Source: Pocillopora verrucosa
Taxonomy: Eukaryota > Cnidaria > Anthozoa > Scleractinia > Pocilloporidae
Assembly (NCBI RefSeq): GCF_036669915.1
Contig: NC_089325.1
Span: 4,224,683-4,288,682, forward strand
Direction of reading: 5' to 3'
Length of the DNA stretch: 64,000 nt
Positions 20,901-63,410 of this stretch are shown here, piece by piece (position 1 is the stretch's first letter; every line of letters begins with the position of its first letter). A program made the translations under genes and the position numbers. The notes under the pieces were generated by a model. The model did no database searches and had not been told where the DNA came from. It was given only the letters and a program-made list of their open reading frames with translations.

Positions 20901-21553
20901 AGGCTGATCTACGGCCGTTTAGCTCGCTTTTAGTTCCCCGGCCCTACTTTGCCATCTTTATACATTTTCTCCTTAACATATTACAGCCTTACGGAACATT
21001 CAACCAATATATCCAAGTTCATAGAGCGATTTAGGTATCTACAAAAATGCTTTGCTTTCTTTTCATTTCCATAATTAGGAGGATAATCTCATCAATTTTA
21101 GAAAACTCGTTCTACTTCTTATTTCTTTTCTTTTGTTTTCATATTGTTCTTTTTTTCTTTGTAGTGTGCAGTGCAAATCTTCACGTATCAAATAACAAAC
21201 GTCAGTTCTTCTCTCATCCAAGTTATGGCAGCGACAATTACAAATCAAACCTCCGGTGTTCATGGCGGCTGACTACTCGGCCTGGATATATTATTCGTTT
21301 GCGATTCAAGCAGTTTGACGTTGAAAACGAGAAGCTCTGTGGATACGATTACGTCATCATCCGCGACGGAACTAACAACACCGCGCCACTACTGGGACGA
21401 GCTTGCGGTCAGACGTCGACTCAATCTTCGCACGAGTTCGTATCAACCGGAAATCGAATGTGGATAAAATTTGAAACGGACTTGACAAACAACAGGAAAG
21501 GTTTCATTGCAGAGTATTTTAGATCACGCAAAAATGAAAAACGATCGTTATAG
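5913..21553 (+). CDS. BMP1/tolloid-like: tolloid/BMP1-like secreted metalloprotease, 15 exons
   Basis: Zinc endopeptidase of the astacin family. Relatives cleave procollagens and BMP antagonists outside the cell. Exons: 5913-6009, 6417-6557, 12148-12265, 12702-12880, 13661-13894, 14553-14888, 15239-15348, 16117-16348, 16852-16974, 17427-17593, 18075-18246, 18575-18700, 19580-19719, 20348-20555, 21165-21553. All junctions are GT/AG and keep frame, giving 923 residues (human BMP1 is about 986). Order: signal peptide 1-22; short propeptide with GDI switch Asp39 and furin site RRKR 51-54; astacin 55-256; CUB1 257-368; CUB2 to 482; EGF1 to 523; CUB3 to 636; EGF2 to 678; CUB4 to 794; CUB5 to the basic C-terminus. 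Active site [13 protein letters not shown] has zinc ligands His148, 152, 158 and catalytic Glu149; the Met-turn is SIMHY 203-207; the CGCCSY cysteine-rich loop typical of BMP1/tolloid is present. The start is the only ATG giving a signal peptide. No breaks seen. Ortholog group is secure; the exact paralogue is not. Confidence 0.93.
8388..8597. mobile_element. MITE-like element with TTAACCCTT...AAGGGTTAA ends, copy 1
   Basis: About 210 bp. The left end has TTAACCCTTAGACTCCCA and the right end TGGGAGTTAAAGGGTTAA, forming inverted termini. It is non-coding. A related copy with the same ends lies 3.4 kb downstream in the same intron. I recall this type of repeat as common in anthozoan genomes; no database was checked. 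Confidence 0.7.
8945..9410. repeat. three diverged tandem copies, about 160 bp each
   Basis: The core ACATCTGACATCAAAAT recurs at about 9045, 9203 and 9369. Each is preceded by TTTGCAAATTG/TAGCAAATTG, a GATGA block and an AGGC block, so whole units of about 156-166 bp are repeated, with clear divergence. Not coding. Confidence 0.7.
11839..12050. mobile_element. MITE-like element, copy 2
   Basis: Starts TTAACCCTTTAACTCCCA and ends GGGAGTTACAGGGTTAA, matching the element at 8388-8597 in ends, length and internal AGAATTTAG/GGAGAAATT words, but clearly diverged. It sits about 100 bp upstream of the third tolloid exon. Confidence 0.7.
12966..13111 (+). repeat. four copies of a 16-bp AACCG..CGTAAA motif
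   Basis: AACCGATAGCCGTAAA at 12966, AACCGTTAGTCGTAAA at 12996, AACCGTTAGCCGTAAA at 13066 and AACCGTCAGCCGTAAA at 13096. Spacing is 30, 70 and 30 bp, all on the same strand, inside intron 4 of the tolloid-like gene. Confidence 0.75.
13201..13322. repeat. foldback repeat built on the GGATAGCG/CGCTATCC word
   Basis: GGATAACGCTATCCACT at the left, ATCCACTGGATAGCG in the middle and GAATAGCGTTATCC at the right form nested inverted repeats. This looks like a small non-coding foldback element in intron 4. Confidence 0.55.
14050..14262 (+). repeat. tandem duplication, about 105 bp x2, intron 5
   Basis: Two successive blocks begin TTCCTTCGCAGT (about 14060 and 14152) and continue with matching CTCGT.ATTACT.TAAGTTCT words. 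They diverge by many substitutions. Non-coding. Confidence 0.6.
15485..15598. mobile_element. palindromic foldback element, intron 7
   Basis: The left end GTTAGTATCTGAACA is mirrored by TGCTCAGATACTGAC at the right, and the inner CCCCTCCCCTA is mirrored by TAGGGGAGGGG. The element is therefore an almost complete imperfect palindrome of about 115 bp with no coding capacity. Confidence 0.65.
15862..15940 (-). mobile_element. degenerate tRNA-derived SINE head
   Basis: Read on the minus strand, GTCCCTGTGGCGCAGTGG (A-box-like) is followed about 30 nt later by GGTTCAATTCC (B-box-like), the internal Pol III promoter layout of a tRNA. The acceptor stem no longer pairs properly (GTCCCTG against CATGGAA), so it is not a working tRNA gene. 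It lies 180 bp upstream of tolloid exon 8. Confidence 0.6.
18917..18990 (+). mobile_element. possible degenerate tRNA-like SINE piece
   Basis: CCGCAGCTCAGTAGAAAAGC resembles a worn A-box region, and CATCGGACCGCACATCCCG resembles a tRNA anticodon arm. No good B box follows. Low-confidence call in intron 12. Confidence 0.3.
19376..19432. repeat. poly-C/poly-G inverted repeat
   Basis: A C-run broken by one T (about 19378-19394) faces a G-run broken by one A (about 19417-19430) across a 22-nt spacer, in intron 12. It can form a hairpin, and the strands could also form G-quadruplex or i-motif structures. Confidence 0.65.
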
Positions 21554-23410
21554 GAAAAGACAGTAGCAGTCGCTTTATGTATGTGGAAAAATTTTCTTAG
21601 CGCTAAAGCAGAAATGTTAAGACAGCCTTAAAAAAATCCCTGTTACGCTATTAAGTCATAACCGGCTAATTAAATAAGGTAAACGTAAAAAAATATTTTT
21701 AATTAAAGCAAGAGTTATTTTTATTTATTACTCTTAGTACGTTTCAACCTGCTACACTTTTTAGGGATTTGCAAATAACCTGTGATTTGTACTTTCCCGG
21801 ACTGTTTTGTTCAAATTTCTTCTTAATGTGATATTGTGTAGTTTTTTTTTAATTTATTCTATGCCGCTGAAAAAAAGAATAAAATACAAAATATATATAT
21901 ATAAAAGATTCCAGAGTTTCTATGGTCGTCAAATAGAAGATTTGCGTTATCAACGTTAACAACAGTTTTCTTAAAATAGTACATTTTCATGCGATTTTTA
22001 ATGAAGCATTTCTCAGGAATGCAAGCTTTGTCTTCTTTGTTCTCGTTTGTCTTTATGGTGGCACCTTTTCGAGAGAAGGAATTACGCATTCAGCTCCTAA
22101 CTTAGCCTATGCGTCTTGACCAGACTGTAAAGCTGATTTGCTGGAGACCGTGTTCCGTATTAATGGACACTTATTTTATGATGCCGTAACAGAATATCGC
22201 GTTGATACATGTTAAGGACACATGGACCCTGTGGAAACATCAACTGAGCTTGCACCTTTCCTGCACTCAAACTGCCTCACAAGGCATCAATCAACAAAAG
22301 TGTACCAAGTTTTTTTGATATTCTGATTGGTTTTCTAGATATCGGCATCTATAGTTGGAGTAGCTAAAATATGCGAGGCTCATTGCGTAAATGGACATCA
22401 CGGGACAAATATTTCAAATATCAAAATTTACCGACACACTTTTGTTTGTCATTATTTCTGAAATGTTGTGGCGAAATTTGACGAAAATCGGTCAAATCGA
22501 TATACCCTATAAATTCGCTCAAAGTGGTTGTATTCCTCTTAAAATCAAATGCGAGATTTTAGCTCATAAAGGTTTGCAAACAACTCGCGCCACGCCAGGA
22601 GATTATCGCACCTCCTGAAACCGCAAACCAATAGGACAACGGGACCTCCTGGCAACAATGACGATGGATCAAGATTTCCCGGGAAAAGAAACCCGTTGCA
22701 GAAACGTTTTTTTATCTCGATTGCTCATAGGAACGTTATGGAGGCCGACACAATAATGAGCAAAGTTGCCAAAGGCAAAGGCAAAACCCGCGGAAAAAAT
22801 GGAAAAACCGCAAAATGTGTTGAGGAGCAAGACAACAAATAGACAGACATCTTTCAAAATTACCATTCGAGGCGATCGGTAATGTTTTTTGTATTAAGGC
22901 TGGTACTTATATAAAGAAAAGGAAACCTCGTTTTTATCATATGTATGGCAAATTTTGGTTGATGGTGACTTCTTTGTTCGAAATCTGGACGCCAGCATGA
23001 GGCTCCGCCAGTACTAGTAGCTTTCACAAAGGACTTTTTTTTCTTTTCTTGACAAAATGGTACTCTTTCTTTCTTTTATGGGCCTGTTTTTGTTTGTTTT
23101 TTTTTTACAGAGGACTTTCTTCCACTTTTGATTTTTCTATGAGCAATAATCTTTCCTTAAGCAAAGAGCTTCCACCTGTGAATTTTGTAAAGTGCGCGAT
23201 GTAAACAAAATATGGAAATAACATGAAAAACGAGCCCCAAAATGAGCTGTTGCCGCGAAAATTTCCCCAGGGGATTCGCCCAGGTCCGAGATTATGACAC
23301 CTTCCTGATTTATTACTGCGAATATCGCTTTCATATCTTTTTTGATGTCTTATCTGCAACGATGCAAATGTGGTGTGCAGTGGTCGTAAAAGAAGGATTC
23401 TTGATATTAG
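21554..23410. other. 3' flank of the tolloid-like gene, intergenic
   Basis: AT-rich 3' UTR/flank. A candidate poly(A) signal AATAAA lies at 21878. No gene recognised; the short open frames show no splice-linked family resemblance. Confidence 0.45.
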
Positions 23411-23558
23411 CATGAAATTTAGTGTTAACAACTGAGTTGAAAACGTAAATTGGCCATCTTAACGAGTTAAAAGGCTGACGTTTTGAGCGTTAGCCCCTCG
23501 TCCAGCGCTCTGACGGTTTCAACTCAGTTGTTAACACTAAATTACCTGCTATAATATA

Positions 23559-23597
<39 letters not shown>

Positions 23598-23605
23598 TTC
23601 CTTCT
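23411..23605. mobile_element. Penelope-type end fragment with 27-bp inverted repeat
   Basis: AATTTAGTGTTAACAACTGA at 23416 begins a 27-nt arm whose exact reverse complement is at 23517-23543. Between them lie GTAAATTGGCC and a GACG...GAGCGTTAGCCC...CGTC block shared with the copies at 1.5, 26.2 and 63.1 kb. To the right is the ACGCAGCACCACAGTTTCTT edge, identical to that at 63365. Non-coding remnant. Confidence 0.65.
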
Positions 23606-26140: not shown

Positions 26141-26256
26141 AACGAATTCGTTCTGACGAAGGACTAACGCTCGAAATATCAGCTTTGAAACTCTCAATGG
26201 TGGCCAATTTACGTTATCAATTCAGTTGATAATACCAAATTACCTTATTTTGTCAC
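26141..26256. mobile_element. Penelope-type end fragment
   Basis: TCTGACGAAGGACTAACGCT followed by CGAAAT.TCAGC, then TGGTGGCCAATTTACG and CCAAATTACC, in the opposite orientation to the copy at 63.1 kb. It abuts the point where transporter exon 3 homology stops. Confidence 0.65.
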
Positions 26257-27094: not shown

Positions 27095-27785
27095 TTAGGT
27101 AAGTAACAATCCCTTAAAAGTTTTGCACGGTGTTCTGAATCTTTTAAAAAAAGCATAAACAGCATATAAAAGACGAAAACGTCGCACATCAGTTGGTCAC
27201 ACCTTTCAATAGCAGTTTCTCAGTAACAGGTTTGGCCAAGAAAACGATGCGGCTTTGTTATTGTTGCGTTACACGCGCTGAAAATATCGGTATCGATTCG
27301 CTCGCAGTCAAGAATATATCTTTACGTTTCCTTCCATTTCTATTTAATTTAGCCAAGTATATGTATACAGGAAAAGTTTAGGTAGGTAACAATCCATTAT
27401 TCTCTTCATTTCATGGGTTTATTTAATTCATAAAGCGGACGAAAATCTTTCTGAGGTTTTATTTTCGTGCCTCAGTGGCAACTAGTTAAATTTTTCGGTT
27501 TCTACAGGTTTGACCAGAAATCGATGCGGCTATGTTATTGTTGCGTTACACGCGCTGAAAATATCGATATCGATTCGCTCGCAGTCAAGAGTGTATCGTT
27601 ACGTTTGATCCACTCCTATTTAATTTAACCACGTATATGTAGACAAGAAAAGTTTAGGTAAGTAATAATCCATTATTCTCTCCATTTTACGGGTGTAAAT
27701 AATTCATAAAGCGGACGAAAATCTTTTTGAGGTTGTATTTTCGTGCCTCAGTAGTTACCGGTCAATTTTCAATTGATCAAATTAC
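27095..27785 (+). repeat. 278-bp tandem duplication upstream of gene A
   Basis: Two copies start at about 27229 and 27507 and share TTGTTGCGTTACACGCGCTG, ATTCGCTCGCAGTCAAGA and TAAAGCGGACGAAAATCTTT. A partial earlier copy is visible from 27095 (TAGGTAAGTAACAATCC). A diverged copy of the 3' part recurs at about 32430-32575, upstream of gene B. Function unknown; no coding. Confidence 0.75.
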
Positions 27786-47484: not shown

Positions 47485-50446
47485 CTAAAGTGTGGTTATT
47501 CTTTCAGTTACTAAAAGTTCTTCCTTGTAAAATTGCACCTCTTTTTCTTCTTCAAAGTCAGCATGTTGCTTTACAAACGGCATCAGTGAGATGATTGACG
47601 CGCCTGTTATCAGCACCACACCCGAAGTGTAAAATGGGATAGTGTAGGAGCCAAGCTTGTCTGCCATTAGACCTAAACACAAAAAGTAATGCAAAATTAA
47701 GCCTTGTGCTCCCGATATTTTGGCAGTTTACAAACGATAGAGCACATTCTACTGAATGAATGTGAATTTAGAAACGATATTCGCAGTAATGAACACTTCT
47801 TATGTAGTAGTGAAAATAAATAATTTTAAGGCATTTATTCATCAATTCACGGGTTTATTACGAACTAACGTAATGACCAGCTCCCAGTTGGCTTGTTAGC
47901 TCAGTTAATAGGGCACTGCACCGATATCGCAAAGGTCATGGGTTCAAATCCTCTACAGCCCTAGATTTTTTTAGGCCTCATTTTCAGTACTGCTTAAGTA
48001 GTGTTCATTACTGGGAAGATCGCTTCCAAATTCATTTCTTAAACCGCATTCACATATATGATTTTCAGATATTTACCGCCGTGTAAAAGAAAAATTGAAC
48101 TATATGAAACAGGTAATTAGAGGGGAAAAACTGTCAGAAAGAGTCTATTAGAACGCAAAGTGAAAACAATAATCCACTTAAAGGAAAAGAGAGGAAAAGA
48201 AAAATTATACATCAACCAATCAACGTTTAAACATTAATTCACTTGTGATTTATCGTCATACCCACGATAAGCAAAACAAATTTCTTAGAATCAGAGAAGC
48301 TCACCAGCCAATGGTGGTCCAATGGATATAGTAATGCCCATGAAGAAGTTCAAGTAGCCCCAAGCTTGATTGAATTGGCGTTGTTTGACGCATTTTAAAA
48401 GTAAGAGAGAGAATTGACCCATTGAAGATCCTTCCATGAGGCCGAGGACTGTAAAAATCGCTACCAAAGATCCATATGACGTTGCTAATGGAAGACATAT
48501 GACACACAATCCGCTGATTGTCATACCTCCCTGGTACATATGGAACCTGTTGAAGTGACGAAACTCTCCAAGTTTGCAAAATAAATGACGACTGAAGAAG
48601 GACGTTGTCGCCAAATATATGAATAACATAGAAGCTCTGTCTCCAGAAATGTTCAGTTCTTGTTCGCAGTGCTTAATCTACGGAGAAATATGCAGTGGTT
48701 CACTCATTCCAAGTCCGATGGGTCGGTTTTAGTTTAAACGCAATAAGTGTTTAGCAGCAGGAGAGTTACAGCCACACAATAAATCGGGCGCGTCGCTTTC
48801 CCACTTTTCCAACGTGCACTTTTTGGTGGCTTGCGTTTCATGAAAATTTTATATTGATATTTGTGCAATAGAAATTTAATTTAATTAAATAATTGTCATT
48901 AACTTTTCAACGCATTTTCGACTTTATTTGCGCAACTACCTACGACAAGGTAATGATATGATGGCACGACTTGGATTGCGCATGGGACTACTAGTAAACA
49001 GCTCCACGCTTAACTTTGATAGGACTTCACTTGTACACACCCGAACTTCAACCTCTTTAATTGAAACTGGTTCTTTTAAAGATTTTTTTCACTCAGATGA
49101 TTACACAATCACCAGTCTGGTGACCAACTGATATTTCTTTCTCTTTTTCTCTTATTCCTAGAAATTGTCATGTCCACTAGCTTTGAGAATCAACGGTAGT
49201 TTCATCAAAAAGGCTGTTGTTTTGATGATGAACGGCCAAATTTCAAGGACTGGCTAGAAACGCAATAAGTGTTTGGCAGCAGGAGAGTTAAAACCATTGA
49301 ATAAGTTGGGCGCGTCGCTTTTCCACTTTTAAAAGTGGGAATGGTTGAAAAGTGGCCAAAATTTTCTTCTGTCCATTCATTACAGCTCGAGTATTAAAAA
49401 CAATTAGTGGTGTATAATAATACTTACGATGTGTACGGCTGGAACAAAGAAGCTTATATTAACAACCATGAATGAAGACAACAGGACGAGAAAAGGACGA
49501 TTTCCAAAGAGAGATGAATTTTCTTTCTCCTCTGCTTTTTCATCCGCAGCCATGCCACCCTTGTTATTCTCTGAGCGGTCCACTGGTACAAAAACAAGCG
49601 AACACAAACCGCATAGCAAATAGAAACCTGCAAACCCTTGTAGCGTGCCTTGCCATCCAATTGTATCCAGCAAGCCTTGGGTGACTTGAGTCATAACAAG
49701 CATGCCTATGGCTGTCGCGGACGTCATTATACCAACGGCCAAAGAGAGCCGTCTAACGAAGTAGTCCACGATGGCTACCATACAAGAGTTGTAAATCATC
49801 CTATGGCCAAAGCCTGACATGAGTCCATACGTCGGGTACATCATCCACAGTTTAGGAGACAAAGACGCCAGAGAAAATCCAATGACCCCTGTGAGGGCTC
49901 CCACCATGGCAGTGACCCTGTGGCTAAAGCGATCGCTGATCAGAGAACCCAGAGGACTTAAGACATAACCAAAAGCGAGGTTTAACGATCCAATCCAGGC
50001 TGAAAATGAATTTTATGTAGGTGCTTTTATGATCACATTGTGACTTTGAAATATGTAAAACTGCCGCAGAGGTAGGGTTCATGAATATATATATTCACCC
50101 CTTATATGCATTTCTAGGGGTCATGCATCTTCGGTTATCAGCTCATATGCCGAGTCACCTAATATTGAAATTAAAATTGTTGAATATTTTTTATGTTTCC
50201 ATTACCTGTAGATTGCCTGGATGCTCCAAAGCTTTCCATCAGAGGAGGAAGGAGCAAGCCAAAGCTATAGCCGATCCCCGATACAATTATGACTAAAATG
50301 ACTGAGGCCACGCACACTACCCACGACCAACAACTGTCCGGACGGCATGTAGGTTTTTTTTCTACTACCATCTGACTTTCTTGGCTGGAATCTTGAGCAG
50401 GTGAGTTCACCATGATTGTGTTTTCAATGTGCTTCAAAGAAATCAT
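47485..50446 (-). CDS. SLC16/MCT-like MFS transporter, gene D
   Basis: Minus strand, four exons in transcript order: 50446-50206, 49999-49428, 48677-48305, 47672-47485; phases 1, 0, 1; 457 residues from the first in-frame ATG at 50446 (a second ATG lies 11 codons on). TM1 slot CRPDSCWSWVVCVAS keeps the WSWVV of the family signature better than genes A-C. TM4-5 has DYFVRRLSLAVGI, close to the family YFxKRRxLAxG. TM8 has SFFSRHLFCKLGE. C-terminus RITTL. Exons 3 and 4 have exactly the lengths of gene A (373, 188), confirming common descent. A single tRNA-like SINE lies in the last intron. Substrate unknown. Confidence 0.9.
47881..48075 (+). mobile_element. diverged single copy of the 245-bp tRNA-like unit
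   Basis: Lies in the last intron of gene D, on the opposite strand to it. CTCCCAGTTGGCTTGTTAGC then a tRNA-like head, a T7 run and CAGTACTGCTTAAGTAGTG, followed by body words (GGGAAGATCGCTTCCAAATT, CCGCATTCACATATATGA) that align along the unit tandemly repeated at 60.3-63.1 kb. The head has several changes (GTTAATAGGGC, CCTCTACAGCCC), so it is probably not a working tRNA. It shows that the unit also occurs as a dispersed SINE-like element. Confidence 0.75.
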
Positions 50447-59484: not shown

Positions 59485-59960
59485 GCAAATTTACGCATCT
59501 TTAACTCTTGCGTAAAGAAACGTAAATATAAAGCCTCTTCTTTAGGGACAAGTTCCACGTTCCCTAAAGATGCGTAATTGCAGAGAAAGCGTAAAGACTG
59601 CGTAGAGGATATTAATTGTTCATAAAGGATAAGGATCAAGATGGATATAATTAACCAATTTATATTTGGAGAAATACTCAAAGAAGTGAAATAATTATGG
59701 CTCATACATCTTCAGTAGAATTATCAAGGTATTTTGACCAGTTTCGCTTTTGACACTTTACGCGTCTTTAATATTCTTTACGCATCTTTACTCACTGTTC
59801 TTTACGAAACTTTAAGATTCTTTAACATTCTTTACGCAAAATCAATCTTTACGCGCCGTTAATTCTCTTTACGAATCTTTAGTGTTCCTCAACGACCTTT
59901 AACGTTTTCTTTACACAACCAGTCTTAACGTGCTTTTAATTCTCTTTCCGCATCTGTATT
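59485..59960. repeat. degenerate repeat of TTTACGC/TCTTTA words
   Basis: Many irregularly spaced copies of CTTTACGCATCTTTA-like words from 59755 to 59915. Their reverse complements (CGTAAAGAAACGTAAA, AGATGCGTAATTG) lie at 59505-59600. No fixed period. Origin unknown. Confidence 0.55.
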
Positions 59961-60252: not shown

Positions 60253-60286
60253 AGATCGGAGGGAGAGTATAACAGGTAATTTAGTG
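60253..60286. mobile_element. Penelope-type edge at left of array
   Basis: GGAGGGAGAGTATAACAGGT followed by AATTTAGTG matches, read on this strand, the reverse complement of the edge at 63346-63362 and the start of the end repeat at 63061. Its last 14 bases, CAGGTAATTTAGTG (60273-60286), are repeated at the other side of the array. Confidence 0.6.
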
Positions 60287-60408
60287 AAGATTTAGATATA
60301 TGAAAATTCACATATTTGCACTGCGGTGGAAAGATGAAATTAGAAGATCCTCGCAGCAAAGAACACTACTGAAACTAGTAGTTGTAAGTAGGACCTGAAA
60401 AAAATTTC

Positions 60409-60481
60409 AGGCCCGTACGGGATTTGAACCCATGACCTCTGCGATACCGGTGCAGCGCTCTACCAATTGAGCTAACAAGCC
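60409..60481 (-). tRNA. tRNA-like gene 1 (apparent anticodon GGT)
   Basis: 73-nt cloverleaf: acceptor GGCTTGT/ACGGGCC (with G.T pairs), D arm GCTC/GAGC, anticodon arm CTGCA/CGCAG with loop CCGGTAT, T arm ATGGG/CCCGT with loop TTCAAAT. Apparent anticodon GGT (Thr). Base 33 is C instead of the nearly universal T, and the loop-closing pair is A.C. The acceptor and D arm resemble metazoan tRNA-Ile. Sound internal promoter and T-run terminator; decoding function doubtful. Confidence 0.5.
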
Positions 60482-60653
60482 AACTGGGAGCTGGTCAATG
60501 AATTGGGTACAAATAAACATCCGAGTGAATGAAGATTTAGATATATGAAAATTCACATATTTGCACTGCGGTGGAAAGATGAAATTAGAAGATCCTCGCA
60601 GCAAAGAACACTACTGAAACTAGTAGTTGTAAGTAGGACCTGAAAAAAATTTC

Positions 60654-60726
60654 AGGCCCGTACGGGATTTGAACCCATGACCTCTGCGATACCGGTGCAG
60701 CGCTCTACCAATTGAGCTAACAAGCC
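60654..60726 (-). tRNA. tRNA-like gene 2
   Basis: Same 73-nt sequence as copy 1, minus strand, 245 bp further on. Its 5' end faces the inversion point. Confidence 0.5.
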
Positions 60727-60730
60727 AACT

Positions 60731-60780
60731 GCGCTGCACCGGTATCGCAGAGGTCATGGGTTCAAATCCCGTACGGGCCT
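60731..60780 (+). pseudogene. 5'-truncated tRNA-like copy at the inversion point
   Basis: Only bases 24-73 remain, starting GCGCTGCACCGG. Acceptor 5' strand and D arm are missing, so the A box is lost. It marks the breakpoint where orientation changes. Confidence 0.8.
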
Positions 60781-60953
60781 GAAATTTTTTTTCAGGTCCT
60801 ACTTACAACTACTAGTTTCAGTAGTGTTCTTTGCTGCGAGGATCTTCTAATTTCATCTTTCCACCGCAGTGCAAATATGTGAATTTTCATATATCTAAAT
60901 CTTCATTCACTCGGATGTTTATTTGTACCCAATTCATTGACCAGCTCCCAGTT

Positions 60954-61026
60954 GGCTTGTTAGCTCAATTGGTAGAGCGCTGCACCGGTATCGCAGAGGT
61001 CATGGGTTCAAATCCCGTACGGGCCT
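60954..61026 (+). tRNA. tRNA-like gene 3
   Basis: Complete plus-strand copy, identical to copy 1 in the 73-nt head, with a T8 run following. Confidence 0.5.
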
Positions 61027-61199
61027 GAAATTTTTTTTCAGGTCCTACTTACAACTACTAGTTTCAGTAGTGTTCTTTGCTGCGAGGATCTTCTAATTTC
61101 ATCTTTCCACCGCAGTGCAAATATGTGAATTTTCATATATCTAAATCTTCATTCACTCGGATGTTTATTTGTACCCAATTCATTGACCAGCTCCCAGTT

Positions 61200-61272
61200 G
61201 GCTTGTTAGCTCAATTGGTAGAGCGCTGCACCGGTATCGCAGAGGTCATGGGTTCAAATCCCGTACGGGCCT
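61200..61272 (+). tRNA. tRNA-like gene 4
   Basis: Complete plus copy, 246 bp after the previous one. Confidence 0.5.
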
Positions 61273-61444
61273 GAAATTTTTTTCAGGTCCTACTTACAAC
61301 TACTAGTTTCAGTAGTGTTCTTTGCTGCGAGGATCTTCTAATTTCATCTTTCCACCGCAGTGCAAATATGTGAATTTTCATATATCTAAATCTTCATTCA
61401 CTCGGATGTTTATTTGTACCCAATTCATTGACCAGCTCCCAGTT

Positions 61445-61517
61445 GGCTTGTTAGCTCAATTGGTAGAGCGCTGCACCGGTATCGCAGAGGTCATGGGTTC
61501 AAATCCCGTACGGGCCT
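61445..61517 (+). tRNA. tRNA-like gene 5
   Basis: Complete plus copy, 245 bp after the previous one. Confidence 0.5.
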
Positions 61518-61689
61518 GAAATTTTTTTCAGGTCCTACTTACAACTACTAGTTTCAGTAGTGTTCTTTGCTGCGAGGATCTTCTAATTTCATCTTTCCAC
61601 CGCAGTGCAAATATGTGAATTTTCATATATCTAAATCTTCATTCACTCGGATGTTTATTTGTACCCAATTCATTTACCAGCTCCCAGTT

Positions 61690-61762
61690 GGCTTGTTAGC
61701 TCAATTGGTAGAGCGCTGCACCGGTATCGCAGAGGTCATGGGTTCAAATCCCGTACGGGCCT
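61690..61762 (+). tRNA. tRNA-like gene 6
   Basis: Complete plus copy. The leader carries the CATTTACC variant. Confidence 0.5.
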
Positions 61763-61934
61763 GAAATTTTTTTCAGGTCCTACTTACAACTACTAGTTTC
61801 AGTAGTGTTCTTTGCTGCGAGGATCTTCTAATTTCATCTTTCCACCGCAGTGCAAATATGTGAATTTTCATATATCTAAATCTTCATTCACTCGGATGTT
61901 TATTTGTACCCAATTCATTTACCAGCTCCCAGTT

Positions 61935-62007
61935 GGCTTGTTAGCTCAATTGGTAGAGCGCTGCACCGGTATCGCAGAGGTCATGGGTTCAAATCCCGTA
62001 CGGGCCT
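61935..62007 (+). tRNA. tRNA-like gene 7
   Basis: Complete plus copy, also with the CATTTACC leader variant, so copies 6 and 7 share a recent ancestor. Confidence 0.5.
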
Positions 62008-62180
62008 GAAAATTTTTTTCAGGTCCTACTTACAACTACTAGTTTCAGTAGTGTTCTTTGCTGCGAGGATCTTCTAATTTCATCTTTCCACCGCAGTGCA
62101 AATATGTGAATTTTCATATATCTAAATCTTCATTCACTCGGATGTTTATTTGTACCCAATTCATTGACCAGCTCCCAGTT

Positions 62181-62253
62181 GGCTTGTTAGCTCAATTGGT
62201 AGAGCGCTGCACCGGTATCGCAGAGGTCATGGGTTCAAATCCCGTACGGGCCT
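62181..62253 (+). tRNA. tRNA-like gene 8
   Basis: Complete plus copy, 246 bp after the previous one. Confidence 0.5.
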
Positions 62254-62425
62254 GAAATTTTTTTCAGGTCCTACTTACAACTACTAGTTTCAGTAGTGTT
62301 CTTTGCTGCGAGGATCTTCTAATTTCATCTTTCCACCGCAGTGCAAATATGTGAATTTTCATATATCTAAATCTTCATTCACTCGGATGTTTATTTGTAC
62401 CCAATTCATTGACCAGCTCCCAGTT

Positions 62426-62498
62426 GGCTTGTTAGCTCAATTGGTAGAGCGCTGCACCGGTATCGCAGAGGTCATGGGTTCAAATCCCGTACGGGCCT
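62426..62498 (+). tRNA. tRNA-like gene 9
   Basis: Complete plus copy. Confidence 0.5.
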
Positions 62499-62670
62499 GA
62501 AATTTTTTTCAGGTCCTACTTACAACTACTAGTTTCAGTAGTGTTCTTTGCTGCGAGGATCTTCTAATTTCATCTTTCCACCGCAGTGCAAATATGTGAA
62601 TTTTCATATATCTAAATCTTCATTCACTCGGATGTTTATTTGTACCCAATTCATTGACCAGCTCCCAGTT

Positions 62671-62743
62671 GGCTTGTTAGCTCAATTGGTAGAGCGCTGC
62701 ACCGGTATCGCAGAGGTCATGGGTTCAAATCCCGTACGGGCCT
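62671..62743 (+). tRNA. tRNA-like gene 10
   Basis: Complete plus copy. Confidence 0.5.
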
Positions 62744-62915
62744 GAAATTTTTTTCAGGTCCTACTTACAACTACTAGTTTCAGTAGTGTTCTTTGCTGCG
62801 AGGATCTTCTAATTTCATCTTTCCACCGCAGTGCAAATATGTGAATTTTCATATATCTAAATCTTCATTCACTCGGATGTTTATTTGTACCCAATTCATT
62901 GACCAGCTCCCAGTT

Positions 62916-62988
62916 GGCTTGTTAGCTCAATTGGTAGAGCGCTGCACCGGTATCGCAGAGGTCATGGGTTCAAATCCCGTACGGGCCT
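62916..62988 (+). tRNA. tRNA-like gene 11
   Basis: Complete plus copy and the last of the array. Its unit breaks off at 63064 and passes into Penelope-type sequence. Confidence 0.5.
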
Positions 62989-63060
62989 GAAATTTTTTTC
63001 AGGTCCTACTTACAACTACTAGTTTCAGTAGTGTTCTTTGCTGCGAGGATCTTCTAATTT

Positions 63061-63350
63061 CAGGTAATTTAGTGTTAACAAATGAGTTTAAAACGTAAAT
63101 TGGCTACCGTAAAGAGTTAAAAAGCTGACGTTTCGAGCGTTAGCCCTTCGTCAGAGCGATTGGAGGAATTGTGGGTTGTGTGTGGGTTTATATGCAGAAA
63201 GTGGAGCTACGCAATTGGTGGGAATATGGTGACGAGAAAACAGGAATAAATTAGTTGAATGAAAAGCGCTCGTTGATTCCGTGGGAATTAAGGGTGCCGA
63301 TTTGGAAGATAAATTTTTGTTCTAGTGTTTTAGAAAAATTACCTGCTATA

Positions 63351-63395
<45 letters not shown>

Positions 63396-63410
63396 TTTAT
63401 TGTTTGATAA
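63061..63410 (-). mobile_element. Penelope-like retroelement 3' end
   Basis: On the minus strand, about 63340 down to 63260, an open frame reads KTLEQKFIFQIGTLN then SHGINERFSFN and a stop. I recognise this as the C-terminal tail of Penelope-like element proteins (reverse transcriptase plus GIY-YIG endonuclease). After it comes an untranslated stretch, then the end repeat with CTGACGAAGGGCTAACGCTC followed by GAAACGTCAG, GCCAATTTACG and TTAACACTAAATTACCTG. The other side has the ACGCAGCACCACAGTTTCTT edge. All upstream coding is gone, so the element is heavily 5'-truncated. Confidence 0.75.

Follow-up and report, generated by a model that had tools for sequence, protein, structure and literature searches.

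How Penelope-like elements (PLEs) complete their insertion is relatively little known, as the excerpts of PMC11167929 drawn on here have it. In that account the PLE enzyme of Anolis, assayed in vitro, cleaves both strands of the target and extends them from two start sites that lie 30-40 nt apart within the RNA and define the 'tail'; a multi-copy transcript is proposed as its template, and the hammerhead is dispensable in vitro. For bdelloid Penelope elements, the corresponding part of PMC3846280 gives head-to-head inverted ends as the commonest arrangement, target duplications of 8-10 bp that are lacking in some copies, and a 31-bp tail that may or may not be present on one of the arms. Retrozymes of the coral Acropora millepora, with repeats of 220-245 bp, are made into circular RNAs and are suspected of having a PLE helper, and the same account proposes that tandem copies arise by reverse transcription of small circular RNAs, for which a PLE may be responsible (PMC7229834, in excerpt). 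Here we describe an array of 245-bp units with tRNA-like heads in the coral Pocillopora verrucosa, found in a stretch of 64,000 nucleotides (RefSeq assembly GCF_036669915.1, contig NC_089325.1, positions 4,224,683 to 4,288,682 of the forward strand) that we call the window and whose first letter is position 1 in the coordinates below.

The whole block at 60287-63060 is a single insertion with a target duplication. We assign a probability of about 0.75 to the reading that it is a tRNA-headed, non-autonomous retroelement mobilised by a Penelope-like (GIY-YIG) enzyme from a circular or end-joined monomer RNA template. An original prediction, made from the letters of the window, had instead described a tandem satellite with an inversion. 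In the sense of local amplification and a chance inversion, this description is not supported, given the target duplication and the head-to-head arrangement of all 39 two-armed loci read.

Results

Structure of the array

The array spans 2,774 bp and is bounded on each side by CAGGTAATTTAGTG, a 14-bp target-site duplication whose left copy (60273-60286) and right copy (63061-63074) are identical; CA and TG at the edges of the right copy also match the unit, which leaves the boundary ambiguous there. When the sequences on either side of the array are joined, they align to a dispersed repeat whose copy in a different locus, L067, is uninterrupted; the alignment has one gap and scattered differences. 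The array is therefore an insertion into that repeat. Its left arm (60287-60730, minus strand) holds about 1.8 units and its right arm (60731-63060, plus strand) 9.5 units. The outer end of the left arm is at a site that we call L (unit position 195, or 197 counting the shared CA), and that of the right arm is at a site that we call S (unit position 145, or 147 counting the shared CA), while the inner end of the right arm falls within a head.

Eleven tRNA-like heads were called by ARAGORN and the same number by Rfam (57.6 bits each, E 8e-10). Two are on the minus strand (60409-60481 and 60654-60726) and nine on the plus strand, the first at 60954-61026 and the others starting at 61200, 61445, 61690, 61935, 62181, 62426, 62671 and 62916; a truncated twelfth (head positions 24-73) lies at the inner junction (60731-60780, plus strand). 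The 73 bases of the head are letter-identical in all 11 complete copies, units measure 245-246 bp, and Tandem Repeats Finder reports a period of 245 with matches of 99-100%. The T-run is 7-8 long, with an additional A in one of the units. Of the nine plus-strand units, seven have G and two have T at the position 15 nt upstream of the head. Much of this agrees with the original prediction, which had counted eleven full heads and one truncated head at 245-246 bp, two facing left and nine and a half facing right, with an unchanged head, a variable T-run and a variable leader base. It had put the array in the right place, with limits (60285-63064) that needed correction to 60287-63060, and very recent amplification, one of its readings, is consistent with units that are nearly identical and with a target duplication that has no mismatch.

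As a reference unit we took 61690-61934 (plus strand). It comprises the head (1-73), the T-run (78-84) within a hairpin (68-91), a second hairpin (100-117), a stem (125-162) with the S site in its loop, an AT hairpin (167-186), the L site, the variable base 231 and the leader (232-245), the hairpins and stems being those of the predicted fold of the majority unit taken as a circle.

Sister insertions share the structure and the ends

Across the assembly (353.4 Mb, 52 contigs), the unit gave 238 matches from 40 scored of 1,198 candidates, and a 28-base pattern of leader and head had 432 exact matches, its reversed control none. The exact head pattern had no match in viral contigs or in bacterial or archaeal genomes. 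Of the 2,153 candidates for an older subfamily, the 40 scored gave 132 matches, and several of these are head-to-head; the copy of this subfamily in L055 matches the unit at 85% across 136 positions. An old, decayed head-to-head copy of the same superfamily also lies in the window at 47717-48087, with a tRNA-like head at 47890-47962 (33.8 bits).

We read 60 loci: the window, the 39 further arrays among the 40 scored, and 20 of the 21 further C1 places among the matches listed. Two arms are present in 39 loci, and since these are head-to-head without exception, the inversion looks built into the insertion process. The outer ends concentrate at S (..CTTCTAATTT, unit position 145) and, 50 nt further on, at L (..TAAATCTT, unit position 195), and are often followed by a CA common to the target. 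Where both ends of a two-armed locus could be classed, one was L and the other S in 27 of 28 cases, with one S/S and no L/L; 13.9 L/S loci would be expected (P 9e-8, assuming independence). Classing by phase gives 24 L/S, one S/S and 14 with another end, or 24 L/S among 25 classed. The L arm is on the left in some loci and on the right in others. One-armed loci end at L in 12 cases, at S in five and at neither in four. L071 and L072 appear to be duplicates of a single insertion.

Target duplications were scored for the first 40 of the 60 loci. At least 10 exact bases are common to the true boundaries in 29 of these 40, against 4 of 1,560 mismatched pairs, and a typical length is 12-15 bp. Many duplications read CA...TG with TT beyond, as if both strands had been nicked after TG, a pattern judged by eye and unscored. 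Assembly error is unlikely to lie behind the array, because the duplication is present and the 59 other loci, on 13 contigs, are mostly built alike.

Units within an array are clonal

Substitutions were compared in 40 arrays (230 unit pieces), excluding positions 74-85 and using arrays with at least three covering units. Among 52 array-by-site substitutions, 10 are in every unit, 34 in one unit and eight intermediate. The 10 that fill every unit span both arms in five cases and are covered on one arm only in the other five; T124, for instance, is present in all 12 window units and absent from the units of the other 39 arrays compared. The eight intermediate ones comprise five at position 231, two at CpG and one at neither (L046, position 148). 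T-run length differs between units in 23 of 34 arrays. Because private substitutions fill all units of an array while T-run length varies from unit to unit, each array seems, on this sequence comparison, to stem from a single monomer that underwent many rounds of copying in one episode, some of them with slippage. Growth in place by unequal exchange should leave more intermediate single-nucleotide polymorphisms (SNPs), and L046 looks like such a case. In L047 (953-2406), the A-run before the T-run is 5-16 long in six scored units, against 3 in most arrays.

With L072 left out, the remaining 59 loci provide 97 arms, whose lengths average 586 bp and are compatible with an exponential distribution (Kolmogorov-Smirnov p 0.26, the mean having been fitted from the same data). 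More than one unit is covered by 72 of the 97, and the largest array among the loci read reaches 16.7 units. Inner ends show no single direction around the unit (Rayleigh p 0.69), yet are uneven by a ten-bin test (p 0.003): 34 of 97 fall in the two bins 50-99, the region of the head's 3' half and the T-run hairpin, an excess that we read as pausing. Copying apparently stops at random.

The target repeat has a Penelope-like architecture

The older repeat that was hit occupies 63061-63400 on the minus strand. It has a Penelope-like end architecture, belongs to the family of L098 and L099, in whose pieces no reverse transcriptase (RT) gene was seen, and contains a hammerhead-like core (63130-63154, minus strand) that was found by core-motif search only and received no score from Rfam. 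Of its 1,362 candidates across the genome, the 40 scored gave 48 matches. Both the array of the window and that of L044 are inserted at the same bases of this hammerhead-core repeat, over the repeat's own S site, a hint of possible self-targeting; the insertion in L067 is in a different place of the same repeat. Other remnants of the repeat lie in the window at 1473-1681, 23416-23601 and 26148-26245, and the second of these, a palindromic Penelope-like end, adjoins a headless fragment resembling the unit body (23308-23391).

In L098 and L099 the ends of the hammerhead-core repeat stand alone, head-to-head, with duplications of 16 and 14 bp and, by our interpretation of the output, one arm longer by about 55-58 nt. 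GIY-YIG domains occur at 16 places in the genome, of which two (L090 and L091) were read. L090, a PLE, has RVT_1 and GIY-YIG domains in separate frames, head-to-head arms with a 12-bp duplication and one arm 33 nt longer, and in each arm a hammerhead-like core not scored by Rfam. Like the arrays, L090, L098 and L099 combine head-to-head arms, a target duplication and two alternative outer ends. The 245-bp unit is too short for an open reading frame (ORF) with RT and GIY-YIG endonuclease, and it is therefore at most a non-autonomous PLE passenger.

Head, fold and related families

The head is called as tRNA-Thr(GGT), and the cloverleaf itself is scored by Rfam. The usual base before the anticodon is U33; here it is C, and one anticodon-stem pair is non-standard in the Rfam alignment. 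Because of these two features, decoding by the tRNA-like head is judged unlikely from its sequence. Transcription by RNA polymerase III (Pol III) ends at a T-run, and the unit-by-unit transcription once suggested for the array would be expected to yield only short RNAs of about 100 nt ending at the T-run, which we infer cannot template a 245-nt unit. The head may be a processing signal or a promoter.

Folded as a circle, the majority unit has a predicted energy of -72.8 kcal/mol (z -6.3); in the best fold S is in the loop of the stem at 125-162, L is beyond the AT hairpin, and the cloverleaf is not formed. The motif CTGCGANGATCN{8,30}CCGCAG has 1,399 matches in the genome and none in the reversed control, and its loops vary among the matches listed. 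Six further families were read. L092 and L094 have tRNA-Thr(GGT) heads; ARAGORN makes no call in L093, L095, L096 or L097, and Rfam scores a head in L096. The hairpin between the motif's fixed parts stays paired despite double changes at four of seven pairs in five families, by a hand count in families chosen by eye. When this hairpin is folded by itself, that of the window's unit does not surpass shuffled sequences (z -0.96; 31 of 200 shuffles do as well), L097 lacks it, and the other four families do better than shuffles. RNAalifold on ten diverged bodies gave 11 pairs, two of them with double changes, and a covariation term of +1.2, which is no support, the variable hairpin being misaligned there. 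One stem-loop variant recurs nine times in the region G000:C1:12027210-12140142, eight copies being identical and the ninth differing by a single change; the copies are spaced at about 9-24 kb on both strands, perhaps as part of a larger repeated block. A head-to-head copy in L095 (479-771) matches Rfam MIR8562 at 75 bits (gathering 211), a match that was not repeated in a narrower scan; a palindromic insertion could be mistaken for a microRNA precursor.

Other features of the window

Several ORFs at 29813-56123 are alike in sequence, with Major Facilitator Superfamily matches in two of three tested, and a CUB-domain ORF lies at 21047-21550. Upstream of the array, at about 59500-59950, there are many degenerate CTTTACG-type words (by eye), and a 276-bp unit is present at 27226-27752 in 1.9 copies at 89%.

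Discussion

The insertion structure, the preferred ends, the pairing of an S with an L end in almost every classed locus and the clonal units were observed directly; the PLE enzyme and the circular template are inferred parts of the model. Under this model, a PLE enzyme would make a staggered cut in the target, about 12-15 bp, leaving two 3' ends. Both would prime reverse transcription on the same monomer-length RNA, one at S and the other at L. The RNA would be circular, or read from end to start as if it were; each complementary DNA would lap it and drop off at random, and the two would join head-to-head. One event of this kind would yield the tandem units, the inversion and the target duplication together. 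The L/S pairing would arise because a single monomer offers one S and one L, and the many laps, clonality and random ends because the template is endless. We consider two-site insertion of the PLE type very probable, and a monomeric template read without end, taking a circle and jumping together, probable; the circle may be real or functional, by end-to-start jumping.

A number of points weigh against this model. The argument for circularity comes from clonality in sequence and not from RNA. A single arm is all that is present in 21 of the 60 loci, and among the 39 with two arms, 11 have an unclassed end and one is S/S; by phase, L088 may be L/L-like. Of the first 40 loci, seven share no stretch of at least 8 bases at the scored boundaries, and a wider look gives longer or imperfect duplications for some. 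A plain circle would not lead one to expect that base 231 (G, T or gap) varies within 6 of 43 arrays; this position may be the joint of the RNA. The units of L046 (2353-5071) show a rough period-3 pattern in T-run length and base 231, which may reflect later duplication of a trimer, or a trimer copied as such. No partner PLE was found in the two GIY-YIG places read, where the unit's matches to L090 (by BLAST) and to L091 are of no more than chance length. In the unit no ribozyme was found either: the CTGANGA core is absent on both strands and Rfam reports none to E 5, a weak test, because Rfam is uninformative on hammerheads, having also missed the PLE-type cores beside the array and in L090 and, in a whole-genome search, scored nowhere, controls included.

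Two other templates would keep the PLE-like insertion and change what is copied. A linear monomer could be read with end-to-end jumping, the enzyme reaching the 5' end near 232 and jumping to the 3' end of the same RNA. Position 231, the site outside the A/T run that most often varies within arrays, behaves as expected of an RNA end and, at 15 nt upstream of the head, is where Pol III could plausibly start; against this, length varies little at the joint (one gap, one insertion) and inner ends show no strong enrichment there (16 of 97 at 225-245 or 1-5, against 10.3 expected), and we regard jumping as rather doubtful. It is unlikely that the template was instead a linear multimer. In that case reverse transcription from the two target ends would use a long transcript of a pre-existing array, and the tandem structure would be inherited with no need of a circle. 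Such a template would offer many S and L sites, so that L/L and S/S loci should be found unless priming preferences differ, and 27 of 28 are L/S; moreover, every array-private SNP that fills all units must at some time have passed through a monomer stage. However, the source arrays of such transcripts are uniform too, so that a multimer is not excluded by uniformity alone, and multi-copy transcripts have been proposed as PLE templates (PMC11167929, in excerpt).

The remaining explanations dispense with the PLE. Were the array the product of a short interspersed element (SINE) transcribed by Pol III and mobilised by a long interspersed element, with ordinary twin priming and later expansion, its tRNA-like head and the length of its target duplications, about 12-16 bp, would be accounted for, as would the inversion, since twin priming makes inversions. 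Its T-run at 78-84, however, should end Pol III transcripts before the body, its outer ends have no A-tail, and both ends are preferred and 50 nt apart, resembling the PLE 'tail' signature, so that we find this explanation improbable. It is harder still to credit a local satellite, in which a tRNA-derived unit was amplified in place by unequal exchange and inverted by chance. Near-identical units and the period-3 pattern of L046, which suggests some exchange, speak for it; the target duplication, the empty-site match in L067, the 59 other loci with preferred ends and the scarcity of SNPs at intermediate frequency speak against it. For these reasons the local satellite and the ordinary SINE were set aside, as was assembly error.

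Known systems share parts of this anatomy. SINEs derived from tRNA have a tRNA-like head with Pol III boxes, are dispersed and make target duplications. The unit resembles them in its head, its dispersal and its duplications, and differs in having a T-run inside the unit after the head, no A-tail, and a tandem, two-armed structure. It is like SINE-derived or tRNA satellites in its tandem tRNA-bearing units, but each array read is a discrete insertion and not a long local field. With PLEs (Penelope/Poseidon, bdelloid Pen and Anolis PAc) it shares head-to-head ends, an optional tail confined to one arm, short target duplications, partial tandems and two internal starts, as far as the excerpts of PMC3846280 and PMC11167929 describe these; unlike them, it has no RT or endonuclease gene and no hammerhead core that we could find, a motif that PLEs carry in their pLTR, and it has a tRNA-like head and multi-lap arrays. 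Animal retrozymes, which are not of the long-terminal-repeat type, are matched in unit size, tandem copies, larger target duplications, a proposed circular RNA template and a suspected PLE helper (PMC7229834); again no hammerhead core was found in the unit, which has a tRNA-like head instead, and the S and L ends, head-to-head arms and clonal units are absent from the excerpt of the retrozyme account. In titles and abstract openings of the open-licence literature we found no description of a tRNA-headed element of this sort.

Tentatively, and with somewhat less than even confidence, we propose that animals harbour a class of mobile RNAs whose replicating form is a monomeric circle with no known ribozyme; these would carry a tRNA-like head where Penelope elements and retrozymes have a hammerhead, and would be inserted by a Penelope enzyme through two start sites on one circle, one for each side of the break. 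The arrays hold an internal record of their insertion (which RNA was used, which start sites, how many laps and where copying stopped) and give testable numbers, namely one S and one L, exponential arms and slippage per lap. They hint at an RNA circle that closes without a hammerhead, and suggest that counts of 'tRNA genes' in such genomes include copies of a mobile element. If the model is true, the genome record would fix the missing step of Penelope transposition as one RNA molecule, two primers and rolling copying, and an unsolved step in Penelope-type movement would become directly testable.

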